From the IMG/VR virus record IMGVR_UViG_3300012918_000005, positions 1 through 27,242 of that record: 27,242 nt of DNA; one strand, written 5' to 3'. A program made the position numbers and the translations under genes. The first letter of the stretch is position 1. Each line of letters opens with the position of its first letter. The DNA is from a virus. This document shows positions 2,288 through 16,691 of the stretch, in pieces. A model generated the notes under the pieces. It saw nothing but the letters and a program-made list of their open reading frames with translations, made no database searches and had not been told where the DNA came from.

Positions 2288-2745
2288 TTCGCATCCGCCC
2301 GAGCCCCACCGCCGACACGCGCACCTGCGACTTTGCGTCGGTGACGAAGGAGACGCTACTCGCCAGTTCTCGGCAGCACATCGCGGATGTCGGCAGCGCC
2401 CTGATGTTCTTCGCGGAACTGCTCGGGCAGGCCGAGTCGCAGCACGACACGGACAAGATCACCGACATCGACAGTTTCCACGCCGATTTCCTGACCGGCT
2501 TCGCGACACACGGCTGGTGGGACCGACACCGGCGCCTGAACCGGCATCATCTGACCGAAGCCGATGGCGTGCCGGCCGACGTGAATCTGATCGACGTGCT
2601 CGACTACATCGCGGATTGCGTCCTGGCGGGCATGGCGCGGAGCGGCAGCGTGTCTCCGCTGAAGCTGTCGCCGGAGCTGCTGGAGCGAGCCTTTCAGAAC
2701 ACGGTGACGCTCCTCAAGAACGAAGTAGTCGTGGAGGAGGGATGA
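2284..2745 (+). CDS. His-rich phage protein, DUF5662-like
   Basis: 153 residues from an ATG overlapping the co-chaperonin stop (ATGA). The centre carries HDTDKITDIDSFHADF (about 56-71) and then WWDRHRRLNRHHLTEAD (about 79-95). Spaced His and Asp residues (HD.xK, later H...N.HH.xE) resemble phage proteins grouped as DUF5662, which may bind metal in an HD-like way; I make this link from pattern only. A second helical half contains LIDVLDYIADCVLAGMARSG. Its position between co-chaperonin and scaffold is typical of small accessory genes. Enzymatic function is unproven. Confidence 0.6.
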   Translation: MIRIRPSPTADTRTCDFASVTKETLLASSRQHIADVGSALMFFAELLGQAESQHDTDKITDIDSFHADFLTGFATHGWWDRHRRLNRHHLTEADGVPADVNLIDVLDYIADCVLAGMARSGSVSPLKLSPELLERAFQNTVTLLKNEVVVEEG

Positions 2746-3602
2746 TGGCTGAGCCTGAACTCGACCCTGATCAGCCTGCGCCGCCATCCGCCGCGCCGAG
2801 TGCTGCGCCTCCAACACCTGACACACCGCCTGTTGCCCCTCCACCCGACGAGGAGCATCCGGAGTCCGTCGATGTCGCCGGCAAGAAGTTCGTGCCCGTC
2901 GCGGTGCTGATTGGTGAGCGCAAACAGCGCCAAGCCTTTCAGGAAAAAGCCGCGCGGGTCGACGAACTGGAGCAATTCGCGAGGGAAGCCAAGCCCTACG
3001 TCGAGTTCCTCAAAGCCAATCCGGACCTCCTGAAGCCGAAGGAGTCGGCGCCCCCTGCTAGCGCCACGCCGCCAGCCGATCCGCAAGCCGAGCTCCTCGC
3101 GAAAACGCTCGACCTCTACACGGCCGACGGGAAGCCGGACATTTCACGCGCGAATACGATGCGCACACTGATCGCGCAGACGGCGCAACAGATTGCGCAA
3201 CAGACCGTCGCGCCGTATCAAGAGCGCAGCGCGCAAGAGCAGTCAGCCCGGAACTTTCACGTCGCGTTAAGCGTGAAAGATGCGAGCGGGCGCTCGCCGA
3301 GCCCGCAAGCCTTAGCGCAAATCTGGCGCACGATTCCCGCGGCGCAAACGGCTGATCCGAACGTCGCCTCAATTCTCGCGCTCACGGCGCTCGGACTCGA
3401 TAGCGTGAACAGCAAAGCCCCGCCGTCTGCGCCGGAGCATGCGCCGATTGTCACGGAGGGGATTGCCGGCACGCATCGGCGGCCGTCGCTGTCGGCGCTC
3501 GAAAAGACGATTGCCGCGAATCGCGGCATCTCCGAAGAGAAATGGGCGGAGCACACGAAGGATTTCACGCGCGGCCGTCCGCAAACACTGGAGGATGATT
3601 GA
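2742..3602 (+). CDS. Head scaffolding / capsid assembly protein
   Basis: 286 residues, starting at ATGATG (2742 or 2745) behind the strong GGAGGAGG at 2733-2740. The frame is open upstream, but that part lies over other genes. The layout is that of podovirus scaffolds: an acidic Pro/Ala-rich disordered N-terminus (residues 1-45), a short strand VAGKKFVPVAVLIGERKQRQ, a charged helical region (about 60-170) including EKAARVDELEQFAREAKPYVEFLKANPDLL, a Gln/Ala-rich helix TLIAQTAQQIAQQTVAPYQ, and a basic C-terminal segment SEEKWAEHTKDFTRG. Scaffold C-termini usually contact the capsid protein. The scaffold would fill the procapsid and leave on packaging. The capsid gene is not adjacent but ~7.8 kb downstream. 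Confidence 0.75.
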   Translation: MMAEPELDPDQPAPPSAAPSAAPPTPDTPPVAPPPDEEHPESVDVAGKKFVPVAVLIGERKQRQAFQEKAARVDELEQFAREAKPYVEFLKANPDLLKPKESAPPASATPPADPQAELLAKTLDLYTADGKPDISRANTMRTLIAQTAQQIAQQTVAPYQERSAQEQSARNFHVALSVKDASGRSPSPQALAQIWRTIPAAQTADPNVASILALTALGLDSVNSKAPPSAPEHAPIVTEGIAGTHRRPSLSALEKTIAANRGISEEKWAEHTKDFTRGRPQTLEDD

Positions 3603-4399
3603 AGCCGCTCATTCTCTATCACGCCGGCTGCTGGGACGGCTTCTGTGCGGCCTGGGTCGCGCGGATGGCATTCGGCGAGATCGAGGCAATCCCCGTGCAG
3701 TACGGCACCGAACCGCCGAACGTCAACGACAGGGAGGTCTACGTCCTCGATTTCAGTTGGTCGCGCGACCGGCTCCTGAATCTGAAGCACGACGCGAAAA
3801 CGATCATCGTGCTGGATCACCATGCGACCGCCGCAGAGGATCTCGCGGGGCTCGACTGGTGCCGGTTTGATCTGACGAAATCAGGCGGTCGGCTTGCGTG
3901 GGAATATTTCGACTTCATCGGCGGCTGGCAGGGTCAAGTCTCGCCATGGCTCGTGGACTATACCGAAGACCGCGACCTCTGGCGGCACGCCTTACCCGAC
4001 TCGCAGGCCGTGAATGCCGCGCTACGGAGCTATCCGCTGGACTTCGCGCTGTGGGATGACTTCAACGGACGGCATCCGTCAGAATTCGTCGTAGAGGGCA
4101 AGGCGATTCGTCGCCGTGAGCATCAAATCATCATGGATCATGTGCACAATGCGCGTGAGCGTGTCATGGACGGCCTCGAAGTGCTCGTGGTGAATGCAAC
4201 CGTTCTTTTTTCGGAAATTGCTGGCAAACTGGCGGATGGGCGCCCGTTCGGTGCGTGTTACTTCGATCGTGGTGATGGTGTGCGCGTCTGGTCGCTCCGC
4301 TCAGATCCTGAAGGTGTGAACGTCTCGCTTATTGCCAAAGCACATAGCGGCGGTGGGCACCCCCATGCCGCTGGTTATCAAGAAGTGATTGGAGGATGA
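3599..4399 (+). CDS. DHH/DHHA1-family phosphoesterase
   Basis: 266 residues from a TTG start inside ATTGA, with GGAGG at 3590-3594; the nearby ATG at 3595 is in another frame that has no recognisable content. DHH family elements are visible in order: CWDGFCAAWV (11-20), VLDFS (49-53), VLDHHAT (71-77) and, near the end, a glycine-rich SGGGHPHAAGY typical of the DHHA1 substrate-binding domain. The family includes RecJ, NrnA oligoribonucleases and cyclic-dinucleotide phosphodiesterases (metal-dependent, cytoplasmic). Small phage members like this one are of unknown substrate; removal of short oligonucleotides or of cyclic-dinucleotide defence signals are both conceivable. It follows the scaffold in the same transcription direction. 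Confidence 0.8.
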   Translation: MKPLILYHAGCWDGFCAAWVARMAFGEIEAIPVQYGTEPPNVNDREVYVLDFSWSRDRLLNLKHDAKTIIVLDHHATAAEDLAGLDWCRFDLTKSGGRLAWEYFDFIGGWQGQVSPWLVDYTEDRDLWRHALPDSQAVNAALRSYPLDFALWDDFNGRHPSEFVVEGKAIRRREHQIIMDHVHNARERVMDGLEVLVVNATVLFSEIAGKLADGRPFGACYFDRGDGVRVWSLRSDPEGVNVSLIAKAHSGGGHPHAAGYQEVIGG

Positions 4400-4402
4400 C
4401 GA

Positions 4403-4822
4403 ATGTCAGCCACGAGTCCGCGCGTTTCATTACGCGTCGAATCTATAGCGGACTTACGCGCTCGTTATCACGCCTCCATCACTGACTTATACGATCAATT
4501 GGAGGTGGCATCTGGCGAGCGCTATCCACCCAGCGCGCTTGAGCGGCATGTATTTGATACGCCTGATGGCTGGCGATTGATCGTCAGTCTGGAACGCACT
4601 CCTAACGGAATGGTCGGCATTCACCTGTCGGGATCGATACACAATGCCCGCTTAGTCATGCGTAGTCTCCGCGACTGGGAGGGTGATCAGGGCTTGCATA
4701 AGCTGATCGATGCTGTCATTGGCGCTTGGCAATCACTCGCTAATAGCGACAAAATGCCTACGTTCTTAGGTCTATCGGAAAAGGGTGTGCCGCACTTTTT
4801 TCTGAACCGTGGCGACGCCTAA
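4403..4822 (+). CDS. Hypothetical protein
   Basis: 139 residues from ATG at 4403, three bases after the previous stop, with GGAGG at 4391-4395. I do not recognise a family. The predicted content is mixed: an N-terminal helix with ADLRARYHASITDLYDQLE, a strand-rich centre (WRLIVSLERTPNGMVGIHLSG), then helices. Codon use looks different from its neighbours, with more TTA, AGT, ATA and T-ending codons and visibly lower GC than adjacent genes, which hints at recent acquisition. It is followed by AAAGGAGAA before the next gene. No signal peptide or membrane segment is seen. Confidence 0.6.
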   Translation: MSATSPRVSLRVESIADLRARYHASITDLYDQLEVASGERYPPSALERHVFDTPDGWRLIVSLERTPNGMVGIHLSGSIHNARLVMRSLRDWEGDQGLHKLIDAVIGAWQSLANSDKMPTFLGLSEKGVPHFFLNRGDA

Positions 4823-4835
4823 AGGAGAATAACTA

Positions 4836-5390
4836 ATGCCGCCAAAAGGTTGGAAACGCCCGCCTCGCATCGAAGTCACCGACCGCAGCCAACAGGCGCC
4901 GCTGGATGTCCTGTTGAGCGATCCGCGCTATGCCGCACGGCTCGCCAATCCATTCTCCGAGCCCTCTGCGCCGATTGCGCTCAAAGACGCCTCGCGCGAG
5001 TGCCGTTGGTTCAACGCGGCTGTGGCCACGGACCATATCTGGCGCTCGAAACGCAAAGGCTGGGACCAAGTGCGCCCGGGCGATGTCGCGGAACTTGACC
5101 AGATTGGCGGCTACAACAAATCGCCTGATGGCTACATCACGCGCGGGGAACGCGGCCAGGAAGTGCTGATGTCGATGCCGCGGGACGTGCGGTCGCAGAT
5201 TCAAATGGCGAAAACGCGCGCGAATCTGGAGGCGGTTGGGCGGCCGAACGCGACCAAGCAAGCGATTGTGCAGGCCGCGAGCGAGCAGCTCGGGGACGAA
5301 GCCGCGAGTTATTTGCACGACCACATCGGGCCGGTTGGCACGGTCACGGACACGATTGAACGCGTGGAACGCCTGGAGCCCAGTGATTAA
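4836..5390 (+). CDS. Conserved-looking phage protein, possible head-associated
   Basis: 184 residues from ATG at 4836 with AAGGAGAA about 10 bases upstream. No catalytic motif is visible. The centre is distinctive: RECRWFNAAVATDHIWRSKR (about 54-73), then KGWDQVRPGDVAE, SPDGYITRGERGQEVLMSMP and a basic helix QIQMAKTRANLEAVGR. I recall similar segments (IWRAK.KGW...RP.D, GERGQE.LM.MP) in small proteins encoded next to capsid genes of environmental phages, but cannot verify this. The N-terminus (PPKGWKRPPRIEV) is basic and proline-rich. It overlaps the following nucleotidyltransferase start by 8 bases. Confidence 0.6.
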   Translation: MPPKGWKRPPRIEVTDRSQQAPLDVLLSDPRYAARLANPFSEPSAPIALKDASRECRWFNAAVATDHIWRSKRKGWDQVRPGDVAELDQIGGYNKSPDGYITRGERGQEVLMSMPRDVRSQIQMAKTRANLEAVGRPNATKQAIVQAASEQLGDEAASYLHDHIGPVGTVTDTIERVERLEPSD

Positions 5391-5775
5391 CCTCGTCTTA
5401 GCCGATGGGACGTTTGACCCGCTGCACGCCGGGCATGTGCAGTATTTACTTCGCGCCAGAGACTACGGGTCGCGCTTGCTCGTGCGCGTCGCACCGAGTG
5501 AGGAGATTCTGGCGAAAGGGCGCAGCCCTTTTCAAACGCATGCTGAGCGCTTGTTTGTGGTGCAGCACCTCCGCTGCGTCGATGAAATCTGCGCGCATGA
5601 GACGCTCGCGAGCGCGATTCGCAGACGCCGACCGGCCTATTTGGTGAAAGGCGCCGATTGGAAAGACCGGCTCCCGTTTGACGTGCATGTCGCTTGTGAA
5701 GAGATGGGCACGATTATCAAGTTCACAAACACGGCGGCGAAGTCGAGCACAGAGCGGCTGGCGGGGATTGCATGA
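5383..5775 (+). CDS. Nucleotidyltransferase, HldE C-terminal / TagD-like
   Basis: 130 residues from the GTG at 5383 (GGAG at 5375-5378), inside the end of the previous gene. The GTFDPLHAGH block (9-18) holds the HxGH nucleotide-binding signature of the cytidylyltransferase-like superfamily; YLVKGADW (86-93) matches the LVKGGDY element of the ADP-heptose synthase HldE (RfaE domain II), and SSTERL (121-126) is the ISST-type C-terminal motif. Length fits single-domain members such as TagD and RfaE2. The enzyme would activate a sugar or polyol phosphate with CTP or ATP. HldE-like is slightly favoured over glycerol-3-phosphate cytidylyltransferase. The kinase half of HldE is not present in this window. 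It opens the group of glycan genes. Confidence 0.83.
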   Translation: MINLVLADGTFDPLHAGHVQYLLRARDYGSRLLVRVAPSEEILAKGRSPFQTHAERLFVVQHLRCVDEICAHETLASAIRRRRPAYLVKGADWKDRLPFDVHVACEEMGTIIKFTNTAAKSSTERLAGIA

Positions 5776-5793
5776 CCGACGACGGAGGAGGTG

Positions 5794-5892
5794 ATGTTCT
5801 TTGCACCCAACTGGTTGTCAATGCCAACAATGTTCAGCTCGAATGGTGACTCAGCGGTAGCTGGGGATCAGCATCCAGCAAAAACTCACTGA
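5794..5892 (+). CDS. Possible 32-residue small protein
   Basis: The 124 bases between two enzymes hold a short frame starting at ATG 5794 behind GGAGGAGG (5784-5791), the strongest ribosome-binding sequence in this region, and ending at TGA 5890-5892, seven bases before the next gene. The peptide begins MFFAPNWLSMPTMFSS and has no recognisable motif. A second tiny frame (5772-5849, 25 residues, overlapping the previous stop as ATGA) competes for the same stretch. Either could be translated, or the strong site may serve re-initiation. Support is only the ribosome binding site and the fit to the gap. Confidence 0.25.
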   Translation: MFFAPNWLSMPTMFSSNGDSAVAGDQHPAKTH

Positions 5893-5899
5893 GACGAAG

Positions 5900-6526
5900 A
5901 TGACCGACGCCGAAGCTCTCGCGGCGTTTGAACAGCTCTGTCAGTCGCAACGGCCCGCCTCGACGCCGTGGCAACCGGTCACGGACTACAGCTTCGAGGC
6001 GCGCAAAGTCATCGAAGGCCCGCACGCCGATCTGATTCTGAAGACGTTTTCTCCAGAGCGAATTCTCGATTATGGCTGTGGTCAGGGACATCTGTTGCGC
6101 TTGCTCGAAGAGCGCCTCCAACTCTACCAGCACACGTTTTACGGGTATGAACCGTCCATCGCCTTGCTCCGCGAGGCGCAGTCACATGTCGATGCCTTCG
6201 ACCTCGTGCCTCCTGGGCAGTTTGACCTCGTGATCTGCCGGGAAGTGCTGGAGCATCTGACGGTGCGCGAGATTCGGCACACGGTCCAGATCCTGTGCGA
6301 GAAATCCTCGCGCTACGTGTACATCACGGCCAGATTCTCTGAATCACCAGCACATTTTTTAGATGTGCAGACGTCTGACGATCTCGATCCGTCGCACATC
6401 AGCATGGTCAATCAGTCGCTCCTGCGGGCGCTGTTCGTGATGGAAGGCTTCGTGCGAAAACCGCACTTGGAACAGCAACTCGATTGGAATCATCAGCAGC
6501 GGGTTTTGGTCTACGAGCGCGCATGA
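5900..6526 (+). CDS. Class I SAM-dependent methyltransferase
   Basis: 208 residues with ILDYGCGQG as motif I (55-63), YGYEPS (81-86) as the acidic ribose-binding strand end, and FDLVICREVLEHL (108-120) as motif IV, the pattern of methyltransferase type 11/23 families that act on sugars and small molecules. An N-terminal helical cap (1-50) precedes the Rossmann core. A segment HFLDVQTSDDLDPSHISMVNQSLLRALF (in part, about 153-180) corresponds to the C-terminal sheet. The ribosome binding site before ATG 5900 is weak. It overlaps the next small gene as ATGA. Its place next to sugar-activation and glycosyltransferase genes suggests O-methylation of a glycan; that is inference. Confidence 0.8.
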   Translation: MTDAEALAAFEQLCQSQRPASTPWQPVTDYSFEARKVIEGPHADLILKTFSPERILDYGCGQGHLLRLLEERLQLYQHTFYGYEPSIALLREAQSHVDAFDLVPPGQFDLVICREVLEHLTVREIRHTVQILCEKSSRYVYITARFSESPAHFLDVQTSDDLDPSHISMVNQSLLRALFVMEGFVRKPHLEQQLDWNHQQRVLVYERA

Positions 6527-6696
6527 AAAAGAATGCGCCTGAACGCATCGTGCTGACCATCGGAATCAGTGCAGTCACTCTGCAGGACAAGAACGTGAAA
6601 GCGGCTGCAACGGCTCTCATCAACGCCCTCGGACGCGCAGAAAGATTTCACGAGCAGCCTCGCAAACCTGCGAAAATCCAGATCGCAAAGGCATGA
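6523..6696 (+). CDS. Small basic protein, unknown
   Basis: 57 residues from ATG 6523 overlapping the methyltransferase stop (ATGA) and ending over the next start (ATGA), so it sits in a chain of translational coupling. The sequence starts MKKNAPERIVLTIGISAVTL, has a helical Ala-rich middle (VKAAATALINALGRAE) and a Lys/Arg/Pro-rich tail. I recognise no family. The in-frame sequence upstream of 6523 overlaps the methyltransferase and is not needed. The perfect stop/start overlaps on both sides are the main reason to keep it as a gene. Confidence 0.55.
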   Translation: MKKNAPERIVLTIGISAVTLQDKNVKAAATALINALGRAERFHEQPRKPAKIQIAKA

Positions 6697-7466
6697 TCGA
6701 CGCGGTGCTTTCCCAACATATAAATCCGCTCGTATGCGGCGTGGCGAAGTTTAATCACCTCCTCGCGACACGGCTGGCCGTGCCGTTGCTCTCGCTCTAT
6801 GGAAGGACTGAGCATCCGCTCGTCTCGATTAAGTGCGAAGAATCGCCCTTCGCGCTCGATAGCCGCTACGGGTCTGAAGGCTACGACCTCTTTCTGCATG
6901 ACGTGCCGCCGTCAAGCCCGCGGCGTTCACTACGGGAAGCCACGCGCGTCTTCGCCGCCAATTCCGTCATTGCCAACGCGGTGCGCGACGAGCGGCACGA
7001 TGTCATCTCAGCCTTTTGCCCTTCGACGCTCGAGGGTGATGTCCACCGCGGCGCGTATCGGGTGCTGACGTTCGGTATGGGGCATAAACTCGTGATCTCG
7101 GAGTTTCGGCGTTTGAAAACGCAGCTTGACCAGCAGCATCCGGACTACACGATCTCGCTGTCGATGGCGATTCATGAGGGCACGTCCTGGGCGGAGACCT
7201 TCACCGAGAGTATTCGGGCGATGCGGGAAATTTTCGGCAGTCGGTTGCGCGTGCTCGGTTTTCTCGCGGACGATGCGCTCGCGAAAGAACTGCACGAGTG
7301 CGATGCCGTCGCGGCCTTTTTCCAGCCCGCCCTGCGTGAAAACAATACGTCCGCCTGGGCCGCGCTGGCCGCGGGCAAGACGCTCTACACGAATCTGGAT
7401 GCGCACTCGCCCGCGCAGACGGTCGATGCGTATAGTTGGGACCGCTTACTGCCCCTGCTGCTATGA
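6693..7466 (+). CDS. Glycosyltransferase-like protein (GT-B / GT4-like)
   Basis: 257 residues. The N-terminal segment NPLVCGVAKFNHLLATRLAV (11-30) resembles the acceptor-side start of GT4 glycosyltransferases (G-x-A-x-F...LA..L). The C-terminal half has the donor-domain order: LRVLGFLADDALAKELHECD (in the region 190-210) followed by AVAAFFQPALRENNTSAWAALAAGK, which matches the usual 'not reaching the cell surface or mid-level decision, many branches' Glu-x7-Glu-like region only loosely. At 257 residues it is shorter than typical GT4 enzymes (~350-400), so one domain is reduced. It would transfer a nucleotide-activated sugar in the cytoplasm. It is coupled by ATGA to both neighbours, directly before the NeuB-like gene. 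Confidence 0.55.
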   Translation: MIDAVLSQHINPLVCGVAKFNHLLATRLAVPLLSLYGRTEHPLVSIKCEESPFALDSRYGSEGYDLFLHDVPPSSPRRSLREATRVFAANSVIANAVRDERHDVISAFCPSTLEGDVHRGAYRVLTFGMGHKLVISEFRRLKTQLDQQHPDYTISLSMAIHEGTSWAETFTESIRAMREIFGSRLRVLGFLADDALAKELHECDAVAAFFQPALRENNTSAWAALAAGKTLYTNLDAHSPAQTVDAYSWDRLLPLLL

Positions 7467-8437
7467 GAGCCCTGACGATTGGCGATCAGCGCCTCGCGGA
7501 CGACGAGCCCTGTTACGTCGTCGCCGAGCTCGGCTCGAATCACGGCGGGCACCTCCCGACCGCGCTCCAGATGATCAAGATCGCGATTCAGTGCGGCGTC
7601 TCGGCGTGCAAGCTGCAAAAACGCGAGAATGCGACTCTTTACTCCCGGGCGTTGCTCGATCAGCTCTACGACCACGAGCATAGTTTCGGAAGCACCTACG
7701 GCGCGCATCGGCAGGTGTTGGAATTCGGCGAGCGCGAATATCAAGCCTGTCGCGGCGTTGCGAAAGCGCACGGAAAAGCGCTCTTCGCAACAGCATTCGA
7801 CGAAGTGTCGGCAGATTTCCTGATGCGCATCGATGTGCCCGCGATCAAGATTGCGTCCGGCGGTCTAACCGATCGTGCCCTCTTGTACCACGTCGCGAGG
7901 CTTGGCAAGCCCATCATTCTGAGCACGGGCGGCGGGACGTTCGCGGATGTCAATCGGGCTGTTGACGTGCTTTCGGCGGGTCACTCGCCGTTTGCGCTCT
8001 TGCACTGCACGGCGGCCTATCCTGTGCTCGACTACACCGAACTGAATCTACGTGCGATTGTCACGATGCGCGAACGCTATCCAGACGTTGTGATTGGCTG
8101 GTCGGGGCACGTCAGCGGGATCGCGATGCCACTCGTGGCCTACGCCTTCGGGGCGCGTCTCGTGGAGATGCACTTCACATTAAATAGGGCGATGAAGGGC
8201 ACGGACCATGCCTTTTCGCTGGAACCAGCAGGACTCAGAAAGCTGTGTCGAGACTTGGACCGCGCGTATCAAGCGACTGGCGATGGCGTCAAGCGCCTCT
8301 ATGAGTCCGAGCGCAAACCGTTGAGTAAAATGCGGCGGGTCCAGACGCCGGACGGTCGGCGCATTACGGGAGCCCTCGACGATGGCCATCAATCTCTTCA
8401 CACCGCGCGACCTCGGAGTGAGGCCTTGGGGGACTGA
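7463..8437 (+). CDS. neuB-like: NeuB-family nonulosonic acid synthase (sialic/pseudaminic/legionaminic-type), SAF domain missing
   Basis: 324 residues from ATG 7463 (ATGA overlap). It condenses phosphoenolpyruvate with an N-acetylhexosamine to give a nine-carbon acid in the NeuB/PseI/LegI family. Family blocks are clear: AELGSNHGG (21-29), KLQKRE (50-55, canonical KFQ), VPAIKIASGGLT (125-136), ILSTGGGT (152-159), LLHCTAAYP (179-187), ELNLRAI (193-199), EMHFTLNR (235-242) and KGTDHAFSLEP (245-255). The barrel ends near 285. The C-terminal antifreeze-like (SAF) domain that normally follows (total ~350) is absent; instead there is a ~35-residue tail that overlaps the next gene by 56 bases. Which sugar is made cannot be told. 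No gene for making the amino-sugar precursor is visible here, so precursor would come from the host or from outside the window. Confidence 0.9.
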   Translation: MRALTIGDQRLADDEPCYVVAELGSNHGGHLPTALQMIKIAIQCGVSACKLQKRENATLYSRALLDQLYDHEHSFGSTYGAHRQVLEFGEREYQACRGVAKAHGKALFATAFDEVSADFLMRIDVPAIKIASGGLTDRALLYHVARLGKPIILSTGGGTFADVNRAVDVLSAGHSPFALLHCTAAYPVLDYTELNLRAIVTMRERYPDVVIGWSGHVSGIAMPLVAYAFGARLVEMHFTLNRAMKGTDHAFSLEPAGLRKLCRDLDRAYQATGDGVKRLYESERKPLSKMRRVQTPDGRRITGALDDGHQSLHTARPRSEALGD

Positions 8438-8729
8438 GCTGCTCGTCGCGGAAACCGCCGATTACATTGGGAAAGTGTTGTCGATGCGCGAAGGGACGAG
8501 TGGCCCGAAGCAGTCGCATCGGCGCAAAGACGAATCGTTTTACGTCTTCAAGGGCTCGGTGCGTCTGACGAGTCTGGATGACTATGAGCACGTCGTGGCG
8601 CACATTCTGACGCCGGGGATGGCCGTGCGAATTCCGCCGGGCACGGTGCATCAAGTCGAGGCGCTCGAAGATTCCGTGCTGTTCGAAACCAGTACCCCAC
8701 ATTTTGATGATCGGGTGCCGGCGGCCTAG
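8382..8729 (+). CDS. Cupin-domain protein (mannose-6-phosphate isomerase type II-like)
   Basis: 115 residues, a single cupin barrel. RPWGTELL (14-21) and YIGKVLSMREGTSGPKQSH (28-46) lead into cupin motif 1 SHRRKDESFYVFKG (45-58; H46 and E51 as metal ligands), and PPGTVHQVEAL (85-95; H90) is motif 2. Such cupins are common in nucleotide-sugar and nonulosonate gene clusters as isomerases, epimerases or sugar-binding domains, and are sometimes fused to synthases. The start at ATG 8382 lies inside the end of the NeuB-like gene in a different frame. Its stop abuts the NeuA-like start. It acts in the cytoplasm. The exact reaction is unknown. Confidence 0.83.
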   Translation: MAINLFTPRDLGVRPWGTELLVAETADYIGKVLSMREGTSGPKQSHRRKDESFYVFKGSVRLTSLDDYEHVVAHILTPGMAVRIPPGTVHQVEALEDSVLFETSTPHFDDRVPAA

Positions 8730-9461
8730 ATGGCGCCGCGTATTGAGATGGTCGCGCTTATCCCGGCTCGAGCCGGAAGTCGCAGAATTCCTCGCAAAAA
8801 TGTCCGCCTGCTTGCTGGGCACCCGCTCATCAGCTATGCGATTCATGCCGCGCAGCAGAGCTGCCTGTTTCCCGCTCTCTGGGTCGTGACCGACGACCCG
8901 GAAACCGAGCAGATCGCTCTCGAAGCCGGCGCGCAGGTGATGCGGCGATCCCCTGCGACCGCGACGGATGACGCGCCCGATATGCTCTGGCTGCGCGACT
9001 GGATGCACGCGCACGGTAAGGAGTCGTCGACCTTTGCGATTCTCCGACCGACCGCGCCCTTTCGCACTGCGGCCACGATTCAACGCGCCTATGACCAGTT
9101 TGTGCGGCAGGAAGTGCACTCGATACGCGCGGTAGAACTTGCGAAACAACATCCGGGCAAGATGTGGCGGCTGGCGAACGGCTGTCTCGTACCAATTCTC
9201 GACGAGACGCACATGAGCGGTACGCCATGGCATTCCTCGCCGACGCAGACCTTGCCCGCGGTCTACGTGCAGAACGCGAGTCTCGAAATGGCGTGGAGTT
9301 ACGTCGTGTCGAGCTTTGGCACGATCAGCGGGATGAAGATCGCACCGTTTTTCACCGAAGACTACGAGGGGGTGAACCTCGATGATGAAGCCGACTGGGC
9401 AGAAGCGGAGCGATTGATTGCAGCCGGGCTCGTGGCGCTCCCCGCTTTGGCCGTTCGTTAA
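8730..9461 (+). CDS. neuA-like: CMP-nonulosonic acid cytidylyltransferase (NeuA/PseF-like)
   Basis: 243 residues starting right after the cupin stop. It would activate the nonulosonic acid with CTP to the CMP-sugar. IPARAGSRRIPRKN (11-24) is the P-loop-like CTP-binding signature (IPARGGSKGIP.KN in NeuA, with the first Gly as Ala here), followed by LAGHPLISYAI; WVVTDD (51-56), ILRPTAPFR (104-112, the QPTSPLR element) and VNLDDEADW (215-223, the metal-binding ID...DW element) complete the family pattern. Length is normal (~230). Adjacent to the NeuB-like gene, this makes a synthase-activation pair. The gene ends 44 bases inside the next one. Confidence 0.9.
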   Translation: MAPRIEMVALIPARAGSRRIPRKNVRLLAGHPLISYAIHAAQQSCLFPALWVVTDDPETEQIALEAGAQVMRRSPATATDDAPDMLWLRDWMHAHGKESSTFAILRPTAPFRTAATIQRAYDQFVRQEVHSIRAVELAKQHPGKMWRLANGCLVPILDETHMSGTPWHSSPTQTLPAVYVQNASLEMAWSYVVSSFGTISGMKIAPFFTEDYEGVNLDDEADWAEAERLIAAGLVALPALAVR

Positions 9462-10449
9462 ACGCTATCTTCAGCACTCGACGCGGCCGATTCTCGCCGG
9501 GCCGTTTCGTGGAGAAGTCGGATTTGAAGTGCTGTATTGGATTCCGTTTCTGCGGCGGTTCCTCAAGCGCTACGGCATTGCGCCTGAGCGGCTGATTCCC
9601 GTCACGCGTGGCGGGGCCTCGCTCTGGTATGGCGGCTCGCCACAGCTCGACCTCTACGACCTGCGCACACCGCAGCTCGTACGCGTCGAGAATCGCATTC
9701 AGCACGCCACGCACCATCAGCTCAAGCAGATTGTCGTGACGGGCTTTGACCGGCAAGTGCTCCGAGACTTCGCGTTCCAGCACGGCTTCGGGCGATATCT
9801 GGTCCTCCACCCCGCCTGGATGTATGCGTGCCTGATGCCCTACTTCGCCGGGGCGATGAGTCTCGCCGCCCTCGAACAGCACTGCTTTTTCGAGACGATC
9901 CCGACGCCTATGTTGCCGGGCTCAGGTCTCTCGTCGAACTCGATGCAATTACCCGAAGAAATCAAGTTACCCATGCCGTTCGTGGCCGTGCGCTTCTACC
10001 TCCGGCACACGTTTCCGGGGCATCCGACGCTGGTGAATTTTGCGCAGGAGTCCATCAAGATGATGGCGCAGAGCACCGCGGTGGTGCTGTTGAACAGCGG
10101 GATTCACGCGGATGAGCACGTCGACATCCCGATGCCAGACCATCCGAATGTCTTCCGGATGACGGACTTGTGTCACGTGACGCCGCAGAATAATTTAGCC
10201 GTGCAGAGTGCGCTCATCGGCCGGGCGCTCGGGTTTGTCGGCACCTACGGCGGGCTGGCGCAGCTTGCGCTCCGGCTGGGAAAACCGAGCGTAAGCTACT
10301 ACCATGAGTGGGGCGGCACCAGCATCGCGCACAAGCATTTAGCCGATGCGCTGGCGCTCAAGCACAACATTCCGTGCCTGGTGCTTAAGGTCGGAGAGTT
10401 GCCGGTGCTCCAAAGCGTCGTCCCAGCTCTGCAAGTCGCCATACCTTGA
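9418..10449 (+). CDS. Glycosyltransferase-like protein, GT-B fold suspected
   Basis: 343 residues from TTG 9418 (GGAG at 9407-9410), overlapping the NeuA-like end by 44 bases. The N-terminal block ILAGPFRGEVGFEVLYW (25-41) with a glycine-rich GPF.GE.GFE element resembles proteins of environmental bacteria and phages annotated as glycosyltransferases. Further on come FVAVRFYLRHTFPG (about 188-201), AVVLLNSG, and near the end ALGFVGTYGGLAQLALRLGKPSVSYY, which looks like the donor-sugar side of a GT-B enzyme (heptosyltransferase- or fucosyltransferase-like G.YGG...A...GKP). It is the last gene of the glycan block. I infer transfer of the activated sugar; donor and acceptor are unknown. Confidence 0.55.
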   Translation: MQPGSWRSPLWPFVKRYLQHSTRPILAGPFRGEVGFEVLYWIPFLRRFLKRYGIAPERLIPVTRGGASLWYGGSPQLDLYDLRTPQLVRVENRIQHATHHQLKQIVVTGFDRQVLRDFAFQHGFGRYLVLHPAWMYACLMPYFAGAMSLAALEQHCFFETIPTPMLPGSGLSSNSMQLPEEIKLPMPFVAVRFYLRHTFPGHPTLVNFAQESIKMMAQSTAVVLLNSGIHADEHVDIPMPDHPNVFRMTDLCHVTPQNNLAVQSALIGRALGFVGTYGGLAQLALRLGKPSVSYYHEWGGTSIAHKHLADALALKHNIPCLVLKVGELPVLQSVVPALQVAIP

Positions 10450-10474
10450 CACCTTACTGCGCTCGGTTTACCGT
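10446..10474 (+). promoter_or_regulatory. Possible sigma-70-type promoter before the capsid genes
   Basis: A perfect TTGACA (10446-10451) overlaps the stop of the last glycan gene. After exactly 17 bases comes TACCGT (10469-10474), which keeps the three most conserved -10 positions (T, A, final T). Transcription would start near 10481 and run through the hairpin-rich leader into the decoration and capsid genes. The -10 box is poor, so this is a candidate only. Confidence 0.3.
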
Positions 10475-10488
10475 GGAGTCGCTTTCTT

Positions 10489-10506
10489 CGCCCTGTCGGG
10501 CGTTTT
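10489..10506 (+). terminator. Rho-independent terminator-like hairpin
   Basis: CGCCC (10489-10493), loop TGTC, GGGCG (10498-10502), then TTTT (10503-10506). The GC-only 5-bp stem with a tetraloop and T run is terminator-like and lies 40 bases after the last glycan gene. The T run is short and followed by GGG, so termination may be partial. Confidence 0.5.
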
Positions 10507-10523
10507 GGGTCGGTGAGGCGAGA

Positions 10524-10697
10524 CTAGCGCGTCCTCAGCGGCCGGCATGCGACACGCGCTAGATTCGCGGTCACCGGCCGCGTCATCTTCCGGTGTTGCG
10601 GGTGCGTCTCGGCTCTAGGTCACTGAGATTCGCACCGGCTCGCGGTCTGACCTCCCCTGTCATCGCTAGTGGTGTCTCACGTCTTCCCGGAGACGTG
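10524..10697 (+). other. Hairpin-rich gene-free leader before the capsid genes
   Basis: Four further inverted repeats follow the terminator-like hairpin. CTAGCGCGT (10524-10532) pairs perfectly with ACGCGCTAG (10554-10562); CGCGG (10566-10570) pairs with CCGCG (10578-10582); AGGTCA (10617-10622) pairs with TGACCT (10648-10653) and encloses ACCG/CGGT (10634-10637, 10643-10646); CACGTCT (10678-10684) pairs with AGACGTG (10691-10697) just before GGGAG (10701-10705) and the start codon at 10711. No open frame of note uses the stretch. It may be a structured 5' leader, a small RNA or a processing region for capsid mRNA. GC-rich DNA gives chance hairpins, so conservation must decide. Confidence 0.4.
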
Positions 10698-10710
10698 TGC
10701 GGGAGCGTGC

Positions 10711-11283
10711 ATGACTGATTTCACCCTCTCTTCAGGGTCCATCTGCCGACCCTACAAAACCCCGTGGGGCGCCTTCTTCACCCAAGGCTATCAAGTCTCG
10801 ACCGGCGTCTCGTCTGCCACGATCTGGATGGGCTCCGTCGTGACGCTCGATTTCACCGAAGCCGGCAACTCTTCGTTGAATATGTATGTCAAGCGCTCGA
10901 CGGCCGACGGACATTTCTACGCCGTGGGCATTGCCGCCGAAACCCAACCCTCTGGCGGCTCCGGCTCGACTGCCGTGCTCGGGACACCCATCTCCGTCTG
11001 GGAAGCCTGTCCTTTCCAGGAATTCAAGGCGGTGACGAAAGCCGGCACCCTGCAATCCTCGCAGGTCGGGCTCACGAAGACGCTGCACTGGGACTCGACG
11101 CTCAACATTCAGTATGTCGACTTGTCAGCGTCCACGGCGAGTGATCACCGCGTCGTCGTGACGAAGCTGATCGATCAGCAAAACGATTCCGGCGGCTACG
11201 TCGCGTTCCGGTTCCTGACGAACAGCTACCGGCAAGGCTCCACGATTCTCTCGTCGACGCCCTACTTGGCGTTCTATCGCTAG
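10711..11283 (+). CDS. Putative head decoration / structural protein
   Basis: 190 residues from ATG 10711, behind GGGAG (10701-10705); an in-frame GTG at 10669 would place the start before the hairpin and has no ribosome binding site. The protein is beta-rich and full of Ser, Thr and Gly, with no signal peptide, catalytic motif or coiled coil. It carries segments such as SATIWMGSVVTLDFTEAG and GHFYAVGIAAE. Decoration or head-stabilising proteins are commonly encoded just before the major capsid protein (as gpD of lambda is), and size and composition fit. The call rests mainly on position. Confidence 0.55.
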   Translation: MTDFTLSSGSICRPYKTPWGAFFTQGYQVSTGVSSATIWMGSVVTLDFTEAGNSSLNMYVKRSTADGHFYAVGIAAETQPSGGSGSTAVLGTPISVWEACPFQEFKAVTKAGTLQSSQVGLTKTLHWDSTLNIQYVDLSASTASDHRVVVTKLIDQQNDSGGYVAFRFLTNSYRQGSTILSSTPYLAFYR

Positions 11284-11404
11284 GCGTAACCGACCTCAGC
11301 GCGCACAACGCCACGAGCAGAAAAGAAGGCGGGTTCCCGTGCCAAACCGGGGACGCTGGGCGCACAGACGCTGCGGTCATTTCTCGACTTACGAGGAGTG
11401 ACAT

Positions 11405-12325
11405 ATGTCGCAAGTTAGAGGGACAAATCCTGACTTATACGATAACGTGGACAAGGCCTTTGGCGGCATCATGAAGGCGCAGCTTCGTGAGTTACCGAAG
11501 ATCTATCCTGACGTCTACAACATCAAATCCTCAGACCGAAAGTTCGAGCGCGTCGTGAGTTACGTGCCGTTTGGCGACACGCAGCCGAAGCCCGAAGGCG
11601 AGCCCTTCGTGATGGACACCTTGCGGCAGGGCTACACGAAGGATTTCACGCACACCGAGAACGGGCTCGGGTTCGAAGTCACGCAGACCGCGCTCGAAGA
11701 CGACGCGGAGAATCTCCTACAACGCGCAGGCGAGTGGCTCGCCTTCTCGGCGCGGTATGTCGAAGAAGGACGGGCCGCGAATCCGTTCAACAACGGCTTC
11801 ACGACGGAGACGACGCCAGACGGTGGGACGCTGTTCAGCACGACGCACGCCTTGCGCGGCGGCGGCACGGCGAAGAATCGCCCCTCGACCGACTCCGACC
11901 TCTCCTCCACGTCGCTCACACAGGCGCTGATTGACCTGCAAACCGATCAGAAGGACGAAGCGGGACATTTGTCCGCACCGGTGGATTCGTGGATTCTCTA
12001 CATTCCGCCGTCGCTGGAATTTCTCGCCGACCGGCTCTTGAACTCGGTCGGCCTACCTGGGTCCGCCGACAACGACCGCAACCCGATCAAGTCGCGCCGG
12101 CAGTGGACGATTCTGGTCAATCCTCGCTTGACAGACACGGACGCGTGGTTCCTCGTCGCCCAGTCCAAAGCGCGGCACGCGATCACGTTCTATCGCCGCA
12201 CACCGATCAACATGGAACCGATGATGACGGATGCGCGCACCAACAACCGCATCTTCAAAGTCAGACATCGCTTCTCAGTCGGCGCGTGGGCTTGGATCGG
12301 GTCCTATGGAACTGCGGGAGCTTAA
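11405..12325 (+). CDS. Major capsid protein (HK97 fold, gpT-like)
   Basis: 306 residues from ATG 11405 with GAGGAG about 7 bases upstream. An N-terminal arm leads to the KIYPDVYNIKSSDRKFE stretch, then GLGFEVTQTALEDDAENLL (with the ALEDD seen in Mu gpT-like capsid proteins), a loop LFSTTHALRGGGT, a helix LTQALIDLQTDQKDEAG, and the A-domain-like block DSWILYIPPSLEFLADRLLNS, followed by DTDAWFLVAQ and a C-terminal RHRFSVGAWAWIG. This order and length (~300) are typical of HK97-fold major capsid proteins. No delta-domain protease is seen. With the scaffold and co-chaperonin it would assemble the procapsid. Confidence 0.85.
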   Translation: MSQVRGTNPDLYDNVDKAFGGIMKAQLRELPKIYPDVYNIKSSDRKFERVVSYVPFGDTQPKPEGEPFVMDTLRQGYTKDFTHTENGLGFEVTQTALEDDAENLLQRAGEWLAFSARYVEEGRAANPFNNGFTTETTPDGGTLFSTTHALRGGGTAKNRPSTDSDLSSTSLTQALIDLQTDQKDEAGHLSAPVDSWILYIPPSLEFLADRLLNSVGLPGSADNDRNPIKSRRQWTILVNPRLTDTDAWFLVAQSKARHAITFYRRTPINMEPMMTDARTNNRIFKVRHRFSVGAWAWIGSYGTAGA

Positions 12326-12383: not shown

Positions 12384-13130
12384 ATGACCACAGAGCAGGC
12401 TGTCTATCTTGCGGCGGCGATTGACGGTGAAGGCTATCTAGGACTCGTTCCGATCGGGCGACATCGAGAGGGGCACCATGCTCCGGGCTTTTCGTTTCGG
12501 GTGTCGATCTCGAATACAGATCGCAGTTGGCTTGACACGTTGCAACAATGGGCTGGCGGCTATGTGGAACTTCGAAGCGCGGTAAAAGGGAATCGAAAAC
12601 CATGTTACGTCTTGAGATTCAATGGGGCGACCGCGAAAGATCTGCTCATGCGCGTCATGCCCTATCTGATTCTCAAGAAACCACGCGCCGAATTAATCCT
12701 GCGATATTTCGAGTTGGCCGCTCAACGTCGCAGTCACAATTCGCCCGGCACGCCATCGAATCCGACCGTTGTGCAAGCAATTCTCGACATTCATGCACAA
12801 CTCAAACTGCTGAATCAGCGTGGACTCGTGGCGAGCGCATACGCAGGGCCGCAACCGACAACGCGCATTTGTTCGATCGATGGCTGTGAAACGAAGCACT
12901 ACAGCAACGGCTATTGTCGTCAGCACTATCGGCGCTATTGCGAGCATGGAGGTTTCAAGGTTTACGAGCGCACATGCGTCAACTGCGGGCGCCCGTTCGT
13001 CGCACGTCGCAAAGATACGGAGTGCTGCTCAAAGCCATGCACGGATCGGCATCAGTATGTGAAGAATCAGGAGGCGCGGAACGCGTACAAGCGCGCGTGG
13101 CGTGCGAAACGGAAAGCTACCGTCAACTAA
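12384..13130 (+). CDS. LAGLIDADG homing endonuclease with C-terminal zinc fingers
   Basis: 248 residues from ATG 12384 with GGAGG 5 bases upstream. YLAAAIDGEGYLGL (8-21) is a LAGLIDADG motif with the acidic pair region DGEG; LILKKPRAELILRYFELA (95-112) is the helical part usual in single-motif members, which cut DNA as dimers. The C-terminal half carries two cysteine clusters: C163, C168, C178 and H181 (with GYCRQHYRR), then C198, C201, C214, C215 and C219 (CVNCGRPF...CCSKPC), probably zinc-binding DNA-contact modules. A very basic tail ends the protein. It sits free-standing between the capsid gene and the next structural gene, as mobile endonucleases in phages do. Confidence 0.83.
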   Translation: MTTEQAVYLAAAIDGEGYLGLVPIGRHREGHHAPGFSFRVSISNTDRSWLDTLQQWAGGYVELRSAVKGNRKPCYVLRFNGATAKDLLMRVMPYLILKKPRAELILRYFELAAQRRSHNSPGTPSNPTVVQAILDIHAQLKLLNQRGLVASAYAGPQPTTRICSIDGCETKHYSNGYCRQHYRRYCEHGGFKVYERTCVNCGRPFVARRKDTECCSKPCTDRHQYVKNQEARNAYKRAWRAKRKATVN

Positions 13131-13725: not shown

Positions 13726-14109
13726 ATGGGGAACATTGCCTCACGTTTCAAGTGGGTGTTCGGGACACAGGAAGCCTTTGGATCGGGAGCGACCGGAGCG
13801 CCTTCGCCGCTCGGTGCGAATAACATCCTCGGCTCAACGGGTGCCGGAATCGCATTCAATACGCACGGCTTCGGGGAGCAGTTCTCGTTCTATGTCGAAA
13901 CGGATGCTGCGGCGACGTGCTCGTATCAGATTCGCACGGCGCGCACGTCGTCGGGGCCGTGGGCGGTCGTGTCGAGTGGAACGATGAGCACGAGCGCCAC
14001 GAATATCATCCAGATATCTGGGCCGTTCGCGTGGCTCTCGCCGCGCATCAAAACCCTGAATAGCACAAACAATCAGGTCGTCGTGCGGATGACAGCGGTC
14101 GAATCATGA
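13726..14109 (+). CDS. Small beta-sandwich-like structural protein
   Basis: 127 residues from ATG 13726 (a GTG one codon earlier is equally possible; no good ribosome binding site is seen for either). The second half reads as alternating strands: QFSFYVETDAAATCSYQIRT, SGPWAVVSSGTMSTSATN and ISGPFAWLSPRIKTLNSTNN, ending in VVVRMTAVES. This looks like an immunoglobulin-like or jelly-roll fold used in virion surface proteins. The last four bases overlap the start of the next gene (ATGA), suggesting coupled translation. The family is not recognised. Confidence 0.55.
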   Translation: MGNIASRFKWVFGTQEAFGSGATGAPSPLGANNILGSTGAGIAFNTHGFGEQFSFYVETDAAATCSYQIRTARTSSGPWAVVSSGTMSTSATNIIQISGPFAWLSPRIKTLNSTNNQVVVRMTAVES

Positions 14110-14237
14110 GACGCTGGCGACAAGGCGTAGCGGCAGCCCTTGTGCTGGCGCTGGCGGTCTTTGTTGCCGCACCCGGAGCGCAAGGCCAGTTTTGGGTCCT
14201 GGTGAATGGCGCACTGAACTATACGGGGACCGTGACG
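14106..14237 (+). repeat. Duplicated signal-peptide segment, copy 1 (partner 15720-15851)
   Basis: These 44 codons align without gaps to 15720-15851: 37 of 44 residues are identical, and residues 21-41 are fully identical. The matching upstream GAATC just before each start indicates that the duplicated unit began before the start codon. Confidence 0.85.
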
Positions 14238-14993
14238 ATCACCGGGCCCCTCTCGTTGTCCGGTTTCGGCAATGGTGTGAGTGCGTCGACGCTCTATCTG
14301 ACCCAAGGCCCGATCACGGTCAACACGACACCGATCATCAACATTACGTCGACGTGGAACGAAGCCTCGACTATCTTCAGCGGCATCGTCGAAAACATTA
14401 CGAACACGGCCTCCTCAGCACTCTCCAACCTCTTGGATTTGCAGAAGGCGGGAGTGAGTCAATTCAAAGTCACACGGGATGGCAGTGTCGTGATCCTCGG
14501 AAATTTTACCTTTCCTGGGTCCGGGGCGCTGATCGCTACGGGACGCATGGCGGGGCTCGCGCCGGGTGTGTCGCAATGGAATTTCTCCGATACGGCCACA
14601 ACCATTGGCGTCGGCGTCGACTTCGCGACCGATAACGTGCTGAAGGTACGGACACGTGCGCAGACCGGCTATGCGACGGTCGATGCACTCGCCTATAACG
14701 CGGGCGGGGACATCATGTATTTGCAGACCGTGCCGACGATCACGAGCGGGTTTTCGACCTCGACACCGTCGATTGCGGGCAAGGCGAGCGTCTTCGCCGT
14801 CACGATTGCGGCGACGCCGGGTGTGACGGGCCTGGTCGCCTTCAACGGCACGTTCACCAATATCCCCAGCTGTTCCTGCACGAATACGATCACGGCGAAC
14901 GCCATTCAGTGCGTTCCGACCACGACGACTGCGACGTTAAATGGCGCGTGGGTAGCCAACGACGTGGTCCGCTGTCTGGTTTTAGGGTACTGA
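14106..14993 (+). CDS. Signal-peptide-bearing fibre-like protein, copy 1
   Basis: 295 residues from ATG 14106. The N-terminus is a classical Sec signal peptide: RRWRQ (basic), VAAALVLALAVFVAA (8-22, hydrophobic) and PGAQG (23-27) with a likely cut before Q28. The mature protein starts QFWVLVNGALNYTG and is Thr/Ser/Gly/Asn-rich and strand-rich, with KVRTRAQTGYATVDAL (180-195) and a Cys-containing end (SCSCTNTI, then WVANDVVRCLVLGY) of the kind seen at the ends of environmental phage fibre proteins. It shares the first 44 residues (37 identical) and an internal 24-residue block (20 identical) with the gene at 15720. Export of a fibre-like protein is unusual for a virion gene. Confidence 0.72.
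   Translation: MRRWRQGVAAALVLALAVFVAAPGAQGQFWVLVNGALNYTGTVTITGPLSLSGFGNGVSASTLYLTQGPITVNTTPIINITSTWNEASTIFSGIVENITNTASSALSNLLDLQKAGVSQFKVTRDGSVVILGNFTFPGSGALIATGRMAGLAPGVSQWNFSDTATTIGVGVDFATDNVLKVRTRAQTGYATVDALAYNAGGDIMYLQTVPTITSGFSTSTPSIAGKASVFAVTIAATPGVTGLVAFNGTFTNIPSCSCTNTITANAIQCVPTTTTATLNGAWVANDVVRCLVLGY
14619..14690 (+). repeat. Second block shared by the paralogues (partner 16296-16367)
   Basis: 24 codons with 20 identical residues to 16296-16367, centred on RTRAQTGYATVDAL. The sequence between the two shared blocks has diverged beyond recognition, so the genes are mosaic. Confidence 0.75.
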
Positions 14994-14994
14994 G

Positions 14995-15672
14995 ATGCGC
15001 ACGTGGCTTGGTCTCGCCGTCCTCCTGCTCGGCCTCGAACAAGCGGCGAGCTACACGCCCGGCACCGCCCTGACCGTCGTCACGGCGCTCCCCGGCGGCT
15101 CCTGCACCAACGGCGACGCCGTGATCCTGACGTCGCAGTCCCCCGCCGCGCTCTATGTCTGCCTCAGCAACGTCTGGCAACAGGTGACGGGCGGCCTGGT
15201 GGGCGGCCCCACACCGACCAGCGCCAACACCATGGTCGAGAGCGGCGTGAAAGTCGTCACCGGGATGACCAACAACGTGGCGACGACAATTCTGACCGTG
15301 ACGGTCCCCAACGCCGTCGAAGCTGCGATGATCAATGTCGAAGTCGTGAGTTCGATCGGGGCGGGCGGGGCGATCGGGGCGTTTGAATCGACGAAATCGG
15401 TCCAATTTCATTGTGCCGTGGCCCGCACCGCGGGCGTCAACTCCGTCCTGGCGTGCGCGTCGGTGACGCAAAGTAGTGCCGCGATCGTGGCCGGGGGCGC
15501 CAATCAGACCATTACGCAAAGCTTCACCACGGCGTCGGGCGCGGTCGGGGCCGTCAACACCCACACGATCACTTTTCTGATCAATCGCCTCTCGGGCTCG
15601 GCCGACAACCATCAAGCTGTCGTGTATTACCGCGTGCTCAATAGCCAAGCCAACGGCGTGACGGTGTCGTGA
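14995..15672 (+). CDS. Signal-peptide-bearing beta-rich protein
   Basis: 225 residues from ATG 14995, one base after the previous stop. The start RTWLGLAVLLLGLEQAAS (2-19) is a short Sec-type signal with a likely cut near AAS. The rest is low in charge and rich in Thr, Val, Ser and Ala: CTNGDAVILTSQSPAALYVC looks like a small disulphide-closed domain near the start, followed by strands such as GMTNNVATTILTVTVPNA and, near the end, NHQAVVYYRVLNSQANGV. It lies between two signal-bearing paralogues. A role as an exported or surface-attached fibre-like protein is inferred; no family is recognised. Confidence 0.65.
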   Translation: MRTWLGLAVLLLGLEQAASYTPGTALTVVTALPGGSCTNGDAVILTSQSPAALYVCLSNVWQQVTGGLVGGPTPTSANTMVESGVKVVTGMTNNVATTILTVTVPNAVEAAMINVEVVSSIGAGGAIGAFESTKSVQFHCAVARTAGVNSVLACASVTQSSAAIVAGGANQTITQSFTTASGAVGAVNTHTITFLINRLSGSADNHQAVVYYRVLNSQANGVTVS

Positions 15673-15719
15673 GTGAGAATGAGATGTCATCTGAAGTCGT
15701 CACGCACGGCCGTGGAATC

Positions 15720-15851
15720 GTGAGGCGTTGGCGGCGCGGTGTCGCGGTCGTGCTCCTGCTGGCGCTGGTCGTGTTTGCTGCTGCGCCTGGGGCGCAAGGC
15801 CAGTTCTGGGTGCTCGTCAATGGGGCGTTGAACTATACCGGCCCCGTGACG
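15720..15851 (+). repeat. Duplicated signal-peptide segment, copy 2 (partner 14106-14237)
   Basis: Gap-free partner of 14106-14237. Base changes between copies are mostly at third codon positions, which indicates that the peptide sequence is under selection. Confidence 0.85.
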
Positions 15852-16691
15852 GTGAACGGCGTCACCACGAACAACGTCAACGCCATTGCCGCGACTTCGA
15901 CCGACGGGATTACGCTCGCCAATAACACCGATGCGACGGCTGGTATTCCGGTACAGCAATCGCCGCGACTGCGTTTTCGCAGCAACGTGTGGAACACGAC
16001 TGCTGTTGCTGCCACGAATACGCAAGACTGGGTCATCGAAAGCATTCCGATCAGTCAGGCCGTGCCGAACGGTAATCTATACTTTAGAACATCGTTGAAT
16101 GGCGCTGCGCTGGTTAACCCAATGTACATTGATACGTTGGGTAATTTTGTGGCGGCTACGTCGATCAATGCTGGGACAAACGTCAACGTGGCGGCTGGAA
16201 GCTATTTGACTTGGACGTCGCGGAATCGCATCTATGCGCCAGCAGACGGGCAGATCAACCTGACTGACTTCGCCACCACGCATGGGTTTGGTTTTGATGT
16301 TGCGACGGATGGCGTCGCCAAAATTCGCACGCGGGCCCAGACTGGCTATGCGACTGTCGATGCCCTTCAGTTGAATTTGAATGGCGTGCCGGTCTTGACT
16401 TCGACGGCACCGACCATTAGCGGCTTTGCTGGCAGTGGTCCGGCCGCCAGTGTCACCGCCGGCTCGACGACGGCCGCCTTTCGCATCGGCGTCGGCGGCA
16501 CGGCCCCCGGCACCACGGGCACGATCAATCTTCCGACCGCGACAACTGGCTGGAATTGCTGGGTGGTCGATCAGACCACGCCACTCGACATCACGCGGCA
16601 AACGTCGTCGACGACCAGCTCCGTTACCATCACCTCGACCATCGCATGGACCGCGGCGGATATTCTCATCGGTGGCTGCACCGCATTCTGA
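15720..16691 (+). CDS. Signal-peptide-bearing fibre-like protein, copy 2 (paralogue of 14106 gene)
   Basis: 323 residues if started at GTG 15720, which corresponds exactly to the start of the paralogue at 14106. The frame is open further up, with a GTG at 15669 (GTGA overlap with the previous stop) and an ATG at 15684, so a 12-17-residue longer form is possible. The signal is RRWRRG, VAVVLLLALVVFAAA and PGAQG, then QFWVLVNGALNYTG. The middle is unlike copy 1, and the block RTRAQTGYATVDAL (203-216) returns. The end, with a Gly/Thr-rich stretch, WNCWVVDQTT and ADILIGGC, again looks like a phage fibre C-terminus. Cys residues suit an oxidising compartment. Confidence 0.7.
   Translation: MRRWRRGVAVVLLLALVVFAAAPGAQGQFWVLVNGALNYTGPVTVNGVTTNNVNAIAATSTDGITLANNTDATAGIPVQQSPRLRFRSNVWNTTAVAATNTQDWVIESIPISQAVPNGNLYFRTSLNGAALVNPMYIDTLGNFVAATSINAGTNVNVAAGSYLTWTSRNRIYAPADGQINLTDFATTHGFGFDVATDGVAKIRTRAQTGYATVDALQLNLNGVPVLTSTAPTISGFAGSGPAASVTAGSTTAAFRIGVGGTAPGTTGTINLPTATTGWNCWVVDQTTPLDITRQTSSTTSSVTITSTIAWTAADILIGGCTAF
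16296..16367 (+). repeat. Second block shared by the paralogues (partner 14619-14690)
   Basis: 24 codons, 20 identical residues to the copy at 14619, including the unbroken RTRAQTGYATVDAL. Confidence 0.75.

Follow-up and report, generated by a model that had tools for sequence, protein, structure and literature searches.

Ulosonic-acid genes among the particle-building genes of an uncultured phage suggest a sugar coat on its own particles

The window considered here is the entire IMG/VR virus record IMGVR_UViG_3300012918_000005 (27,242 bases); gene models are mechanical open reading frame (ORF) calls, and the contigs are possibly fragments. On the plus strand, a block of mostly overlapping genes at 5383-10449 encodes: (i) an HldE-type nucleotidyltransferase with GTG start (5383-5775; PF01467 2.6e-14, phrog_7878 1.6e-17), (ii) a methyltransferase (MT2, 5900-6526; PF13489 7.5e-15), (iii) GTa, a conserved protein encoded 5' of neuB in most relatives and several bacterial clusters (6693-7466; 39-member alignment), (iv) a NeuB-type synthase without SAF domain (neuB, 7463-8437; PF03102, alignment, SAF domain and residue 134), (v) a cupin, the gene of which overlaps the 3' end of neuB (8382-8729; PF07883 1.1e-10, phrog_7851 5.9e-19), (vi) a NeuA-type cytidine monophosphate (CMP)-sugar synthetase (neuA, 8730-9461; PF02348 2.7e-18, matches to NeuA/CMAS in the PDB) and (vii) GTb, a GT9-like GT-B glycosyltransferase (9418-10449, TTG start at 9418, analysed part from 9451; model, fold and PF01075 in relatives). 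A 57-aa ORF overlapping both flanking genes (6523-6696; from the ORF list, without Pfam family) is an uncertain gene. Directly 5' of the block lies g9 (4836-5390), conserved in order among relatives. On the other side follow g18 (10669-11283), which is kept 5' of the capsid gene and has a Ser/Thr-rich (24 %) product, and the gene of the major capsid protein (11405-12325; PF25209 7.4e-16). The end of a scaffold-like gene (2745-3602) is separated from the capsid start by 7.8 kb (3602 to 11405), the distance already given by a previous sequence-only reading of this DNA. Another plus-strand gene, g33 (21913-22806), is located in the tail region and encodes a GT42-like transferase.

NeuB, NeuA, HldE-type enzyme, methyltransferase and cupin, as named by the sequence-only reading, all pass their Pfam cut-offs. 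The NeuB protein contains the TIM-barrel domain (PF03102 5.5e-66, residues 37-277) and keeps, in the alignment, Glu25, Gln55, Thr110, Phe112, Lys129, Tyr186, Ser213, His215 and Glu234 (meningococcal numbering), i.e., the nine residues listed for binding of phosphoenolpyruvate (PEP) and metal in meningococcal NeuB (PMC6795526). Absent from the window NeuB, according to both Pfam and the alignment, is the C-terminal SAF (antifreeze-like) domain with Arg314, the residue positioning the N-acetyl group of N-acetylmannosamine (ManNAc) in the meningococcal enzyme (PMC6795526). Most NeuBs of the phage group likewise have no SAF domain, the SAF-less members forming a single subclade (support 99); wherever the motif is readable, these carry Gly, Ala or Ser at a position occupied by Asp in the SAF-bearing members. 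Scores for the equivalogs NeuB_NnaB (215 versus 399.65 bits) and PseI (187.1 versus 340.25 bits) stay below the cut-offs. The NeuA protein meets PF02348 (CTP_transf_3; 67 bits versus a gathering score of 22.6) and stays below the cut-off of PseF, the pseudaminate cytidylyltransferase model (99.8 versus 205.7 bits). The product can therefore not be named from the sequence.

The closest bacterial NeuBs (50-58 % identity) are encoded in clusters of the type neuB-SDR-ALDH-neuA-transketolase (SDR, short-chain dehydrogenase/reductase; ALDH, aldehyde dehydrogenase). Among 61 long bacterial loci, SDR is present in 42, ALDH in 49 and transketolase in 42, with Acidobacteriota, Chloroflexota, Thermodesulfobacteriota and others as carriers. 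At the position of Arg314 these nearest bacterial NeuBs have Ser or Cys wherever the motif is readable, and in one case Ile. In about a dozen of the clusters, mostly from Acidobacteriota, GTa, MT2, hldE or GTb is also present, ordered as in the phage. This cluster type is widespread (bacterial contigs L114-L193), and a literature search retrieved no paper linking nonulosonic, transketolase and neuB. Since the nearest bacterial NeuBs are devoid of Arg314 and belong to SDR/ALDH/transketolase clusters, and since the window NeuB has no SAF domain, the sugar of the window is probably not a sialic acid; the earlier label "sialic-acid-like" is thus too specific. Families of the upstream steps to N-acetylneuraminic, legionaminic or pseudaminic acid are rare in the 17 long relatives, which are possibly fragments (PF02350 in none, PF01370 in one, PF01041 in two). 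Because no 2-epimerase was found among these 17, we infer that NeuB uses an acceptor other than ManNAc which would be supplied by the host.

The HldE-type protein meets PF01467 (CTP_transf_like) and remains below the HldE equivalog TIGR02199 (67.5 versus 181.5 bits). The AlphaFold2 model of GTb (pLDDT 87.9) displays a GT-B fold with GT9 heptosyltransferases as nearest structures (Z 13.5 to 1psw), and PF01075 matches 7 of 26 GTb relatives, the window GTb not being among them. A GT9-like transferase would suit the HldE-type nucleotidyltransferase of the same block. UDP-GlcNAc 2-epimerase, which shares the GT-B fold (Z ~10-11), was considered for GTb and is less likely, since GT9 chains score higher and PF01075 matches relatives.

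For g33, which lies outside the region described by the sequence-only reading and was missed there, Pfam and PHROG gave no supported match. A profile of 63 relatives yielded nine PDB matches at E up to 1, all nine being GT42 sialyltransferases. The AlphaFold2 model (pLDDT 95.6) has CstII as best Foldseek matches (6e-4), and VIA-align superimposes the two with Z 10.5 over 154 residues; His49 of g33 is invariant in the 63 relatives. The resemblance to GT42 by profile and fold makes g33 a likely CMP-sugar transferase. In the window group, g33 and neuB occur together in all 17 long contigs. Further contigs >30 kb with a g33 relative contain NeuB in four cases and none in two (G328, G019), and homologues also lie near neuB in other, distant viruses. 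L002 has one directly 5' of neuB. No g33 was found in 14 bacterial genomes possessing the neuB cluster, in a search run without positive control. Decoration of phage DNA by the glycosyltransferases appears very improbable: phage glycosyltransferases modifying DNA are known (cited in PMC12619734), but no such action on DNA is known for GT42 or for NeuB/NeuA chemistry, and the genes are placed with head and tail genes.

Viral contigs were scanned with NeuB, capsid and GTb, and gene order was mapped by tblastn. The order portal-MT1-g3-groES-scaffold-g9-hldE-MT2-GTa-neuB-cupin-neuA-GTb-g18-capsid is found in nine other IMG/VR contigs covering the entire stretch (those behind L003, L005, L008, L016, L025, L027, L031, L037 and L041). 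Variations within this set concern the cupin (not detected in L008, 5' of neuB in L037), the absence of some short genes, and MT2, in whose place L025 and L041 have a DegT aminotransferase. Fourteen more contigs, some of them near-duplicates, carry part of the block, often its last genes alone, running into g18-capsid. The scaffold-like gene had been named as scaffold before; position and composition agree with this label, whereas the PHROG search gave no match. The NeuBs of the window group form one clade (support 98) separate from the bacterial rows of the tree. Between window and L002, dN/dS amounts to 0.086 for neuB, 0.137 for neuA and 0.124 for GTb, compared to 0.059 for the capsid gene; these three block genes are under purifying selection. 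An assembly artefact, i.e., a chimera of a phage contig with a bacterial locus, would fit the presence of the same genes in bacterial chromosomes, but is ruled out by the junctions, which recur in the nine contigs and on the right-hand side in the 14 others, and is further opposed by the separate clade of the phage NeuBs.

The two close relatives L006 and L007 differ in the block in a patterned manner. Divergence within the stretch is greatest in MT2, at the start of GTa, in the middle part of neuB and in neuA (nucleotide identity 0.56-0.78 in 200-base steps), compared with 0.91-1.00 for g9, hldE, cupin and GTb; both genomes also have variable stretches at other places. The pattern looks like an exchange of sugar-defining genes. 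In both (contigs G002 and G003), hldE and MT2 are joined in a single open frame of ~358 aa. Variation in gene content among relatives, together with the missing upstream steps and hence a need for host metabolites, could also point to metabolic or cargo genes without dedicated target, which either boost a host pathway or travel as passengers. This is improbable in view of the low dN/dS, the co-occurring transferase and the long time over which the genes have been kept as a single clade.

Outside the window group, NeuB is encoded inside HK97-type head operons in ~30 viral contigs, either in the order TerL-neuB-SDR-neuA(-TKT)(-g33)-portal-protease (TKT, transketolase) or as TerL-neuA-neuB-portal-protease-MCP-g33-adaptor (MCP, major capsid protein). 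This number includes near-duplicates, and as contigs were sampled by means of NeuB motifs it permits no statement on frequency among phages. That capsid families and insertion points differ speaks for a link to the assembly of particles or to late expression. In L217-L242 and L246-L263, neuB and neuA lie between terminase and portal, often accompanied by SDR, transketolase and a g33-like gene. Within 50,697 phage records, matches to the NeuB queries were confined to a marine single-cell virus, an uncultured phage of 484 kb and a polysaccharide locus of Moritella filed among them; GTb had no match in these records. With g33, one isolated phage was retrieved from them, Microcystis phage Mvi-Yong1342-1, where the g33-like gene is located directly 5' of the terminase genes; it is annotated as type 11 methyltransferase (PP496355.1 34781-35584; L274:19902-20705). 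A literature search, from which most subscription papers were missing, retrieved no description of a phage module that makes a nonulosonic or sialic acid.

The presence of sugar genes among particle-building genes suggests that this uncultured phage, as well as many related and unrelated ones, sugar-coats its own particles. At a probability of about 0.55, we propose that the block and g33 form a phage pathway making a CMP-activated 3-deoxy-ulosonic (nonulosonic-type) acid which is attached to particle proteins late in infection. As to substrates, order of steps, late expression and virion acceptor, we infer the following. NeuB would condense PEP with a host-derived aldose, NeuA would activate the resulting ulosonic acid with cytidine triphosphate, and the sugar would be modified by the cupin and by the methyltransferase, or in some relatives by the aminotransferase. 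A further nucleoside diphosphate-sugar may be supplied and transferred by the HldE-like enzyme and GTb, and the GT42-like g33 would transfer the ulosonic acid to particle proteins. The placement in HK97-type head operons and next to connector genes favours the virion over the host surface as target, and the lack of any transmembrane-like stretch in the block proteins and g33 argues for a cytoplasmic acceptor. The sequence-only reading had likewise preferred the virion, a view strengthened by the same association of a nonulosonic module with late head genes in unrelated phages and by the GT42-like gene among the tail genes. One may speculate that the Ser/Thr-rich g18 product is a candidate acceptor of the sugar.

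Several observations weigh against a sugar made for the particle. In L006 and L007, the block accompanies portal and scaffold, with g18, capsid and tail genes on the opposite strand. In L203-L205, L210, L211, L215, L223, L230 and L232, hldE-MT2-GTa-neuB-neuA lies away from g9 and g18-capsid; on one of these contigs (L215, the same contig as L042) g9 is directly followed by g18 and capsid, and in L030, L032 and L034 other genes are found 5' of g18. Because the block is elsewhere, or split from the capsid gene by inversion, in these relatives, the scaffold-capsid placement is a property of part of the group and not universal; coupling to the capsid gene is not obligatory. The transferases contribute further objections: the g33 profile is weak (best E-value 0.0098), no g33 equivalent of the catalytic base His188 of CstII could be mapped, and GTa, the fold of which was not predicted, had no supported glycosyltransferase family or fold match over several tests. 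Only GTb of the two glycosyltransferase-like genes named earlier is supported as such; an assignment of GTa to GT4, for which the motifs seemed right by eye, was backed by no test. A capsid search in 297 Acidobacteriota genomes gave no match, and an acidobacterial host was dropped for this reason. Finally, the bacterial clusters with the same genes resemble surface-polysaccharide loci, and an integrase is present in 5 of 19 relatives.

The latter two points would be expected if the ulosonic acid were added to, or altered on, host polysaccharide, so that debris and siblings stop binding progeny, or a lysogen is converted; phage O-acetyltransferases for host nonulosonic acid are indeed known (PMC6586298). 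Modification of the host surface is nevertheless the less likely reading, though the strongest competitor, given that the block includes neither membrane protein nor flippase, that most relatives have no integrase and that the genes recurrently lie within head operons of unrelated phages. Attachment to particle proteins therefore stays the preferred reading. An extension of it is tentative and held with distinctly less confidence: several unrelated lineages might make a new CMP-ulosonic acid that is not N-acetylated and use the GT42-like enzyme to decorate their own heads or tails with it. Swapping of neuA and of the genes for methyltransferase and aminotransferase would then change the sugar type, giving a coat that varies like an antigen.

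Other features of the window include a GroES-like co-chaperonin gene within the head operon (1919-2287; PF00166 2e-16), kept in most relatives, and a second methyltransferase-like gene next to portal (1060-1635; DUF268 9.8e-12), a homologue of which is a neighbour of neuB or neuA within the glycan block of L041 and L020. The gap between scaffold and g9 (3599-4822) contains a DHH-phosphoesterase-like gene (weak, below Pfam cut-offs) and a 139-aa ORF, for which no homologues were mapped in relatives. Directly 3' of the capsid gene, an HNH-type endonuclease (12384-13130; phrog_5046 2e-15) probably represents a homing element, with a partial relative 3' of the capsid gene in L014. An N-terminal stretch common to g23 and g25 (14106-16691) contains the motif GQFWVLVNGALNYTG and a hydrophobic segment resembling a signal peptide; relatives of the two match solely across this part. 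Predicted promoters and terminators did not exceed those of shuffled sequence. The protein at 17304-18083 matches the SU10 adaptor (PF24175) and cultured relatives of the capsid protein reach only 28-34 % identity, lending no support to a kinship with T7/N4-like phages.

If the proposed pathway is right, a sialic-acid-like coat is something that phages produce themselves and carry, which would account for the repeated placement of such genes in head operons of unrelated phages and may play a role in particle stability, receptor choice or evasion of recognition. The bacterial neuB-SDR-ALDH-neuA-transketolase cluster, in turn, is a pointer to an uncharacterised ulosonic-acid pathway. It is like the window phage in NeuB type and, in some cases, in the order of GTa, MT2, hldE and GTb, while SDR, ALDH, transketolase and SAF domain are missing from the window phage, which possesses a cupin in their place.

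Among known systems, flagellin O-glycosylation (Caulobacter NeuB/FlmC/FlmG; Maf; PMC7591256) is similar to the pathway proposed here in forming a cytoplasmic CMP-acid via NeuB and a cytidylyltransferase, and in modifying structural subunits by a soluble transferase before export or assembly. The flagellin systems use pseudaminic acid, a full host pathway and FlmG or Maf as transferase, whereas the window has another NeuB type, a GT42-like transferase, no upstream steps and viral genes. In mycobacteriophages, phage glycosyltransferases act on capsid and tail-tube proteins (Freeman 2023, cited in PMC12619734); no sign was seen that those phages encode NeuB/NeuA or a CMP-sugar route, unlike the window. 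In Acinetobacter, phage genes also act on nonulosonic-acid glycans, but the acid comes from the host and is acetylated by phage O-acetyltransferases (PMC6586298), whereas the window encodes synthase and activation genes. The GT42 enzymes CstI, CstII and Pasteurella 9c08 share with g33 the fold of its first ~204 residues and a weak profile similarity; identity is 11-18 %, and g33 differs in its invariant His49, which lies in a different motif, and, in the window group, by an extra C-terminal helical part.

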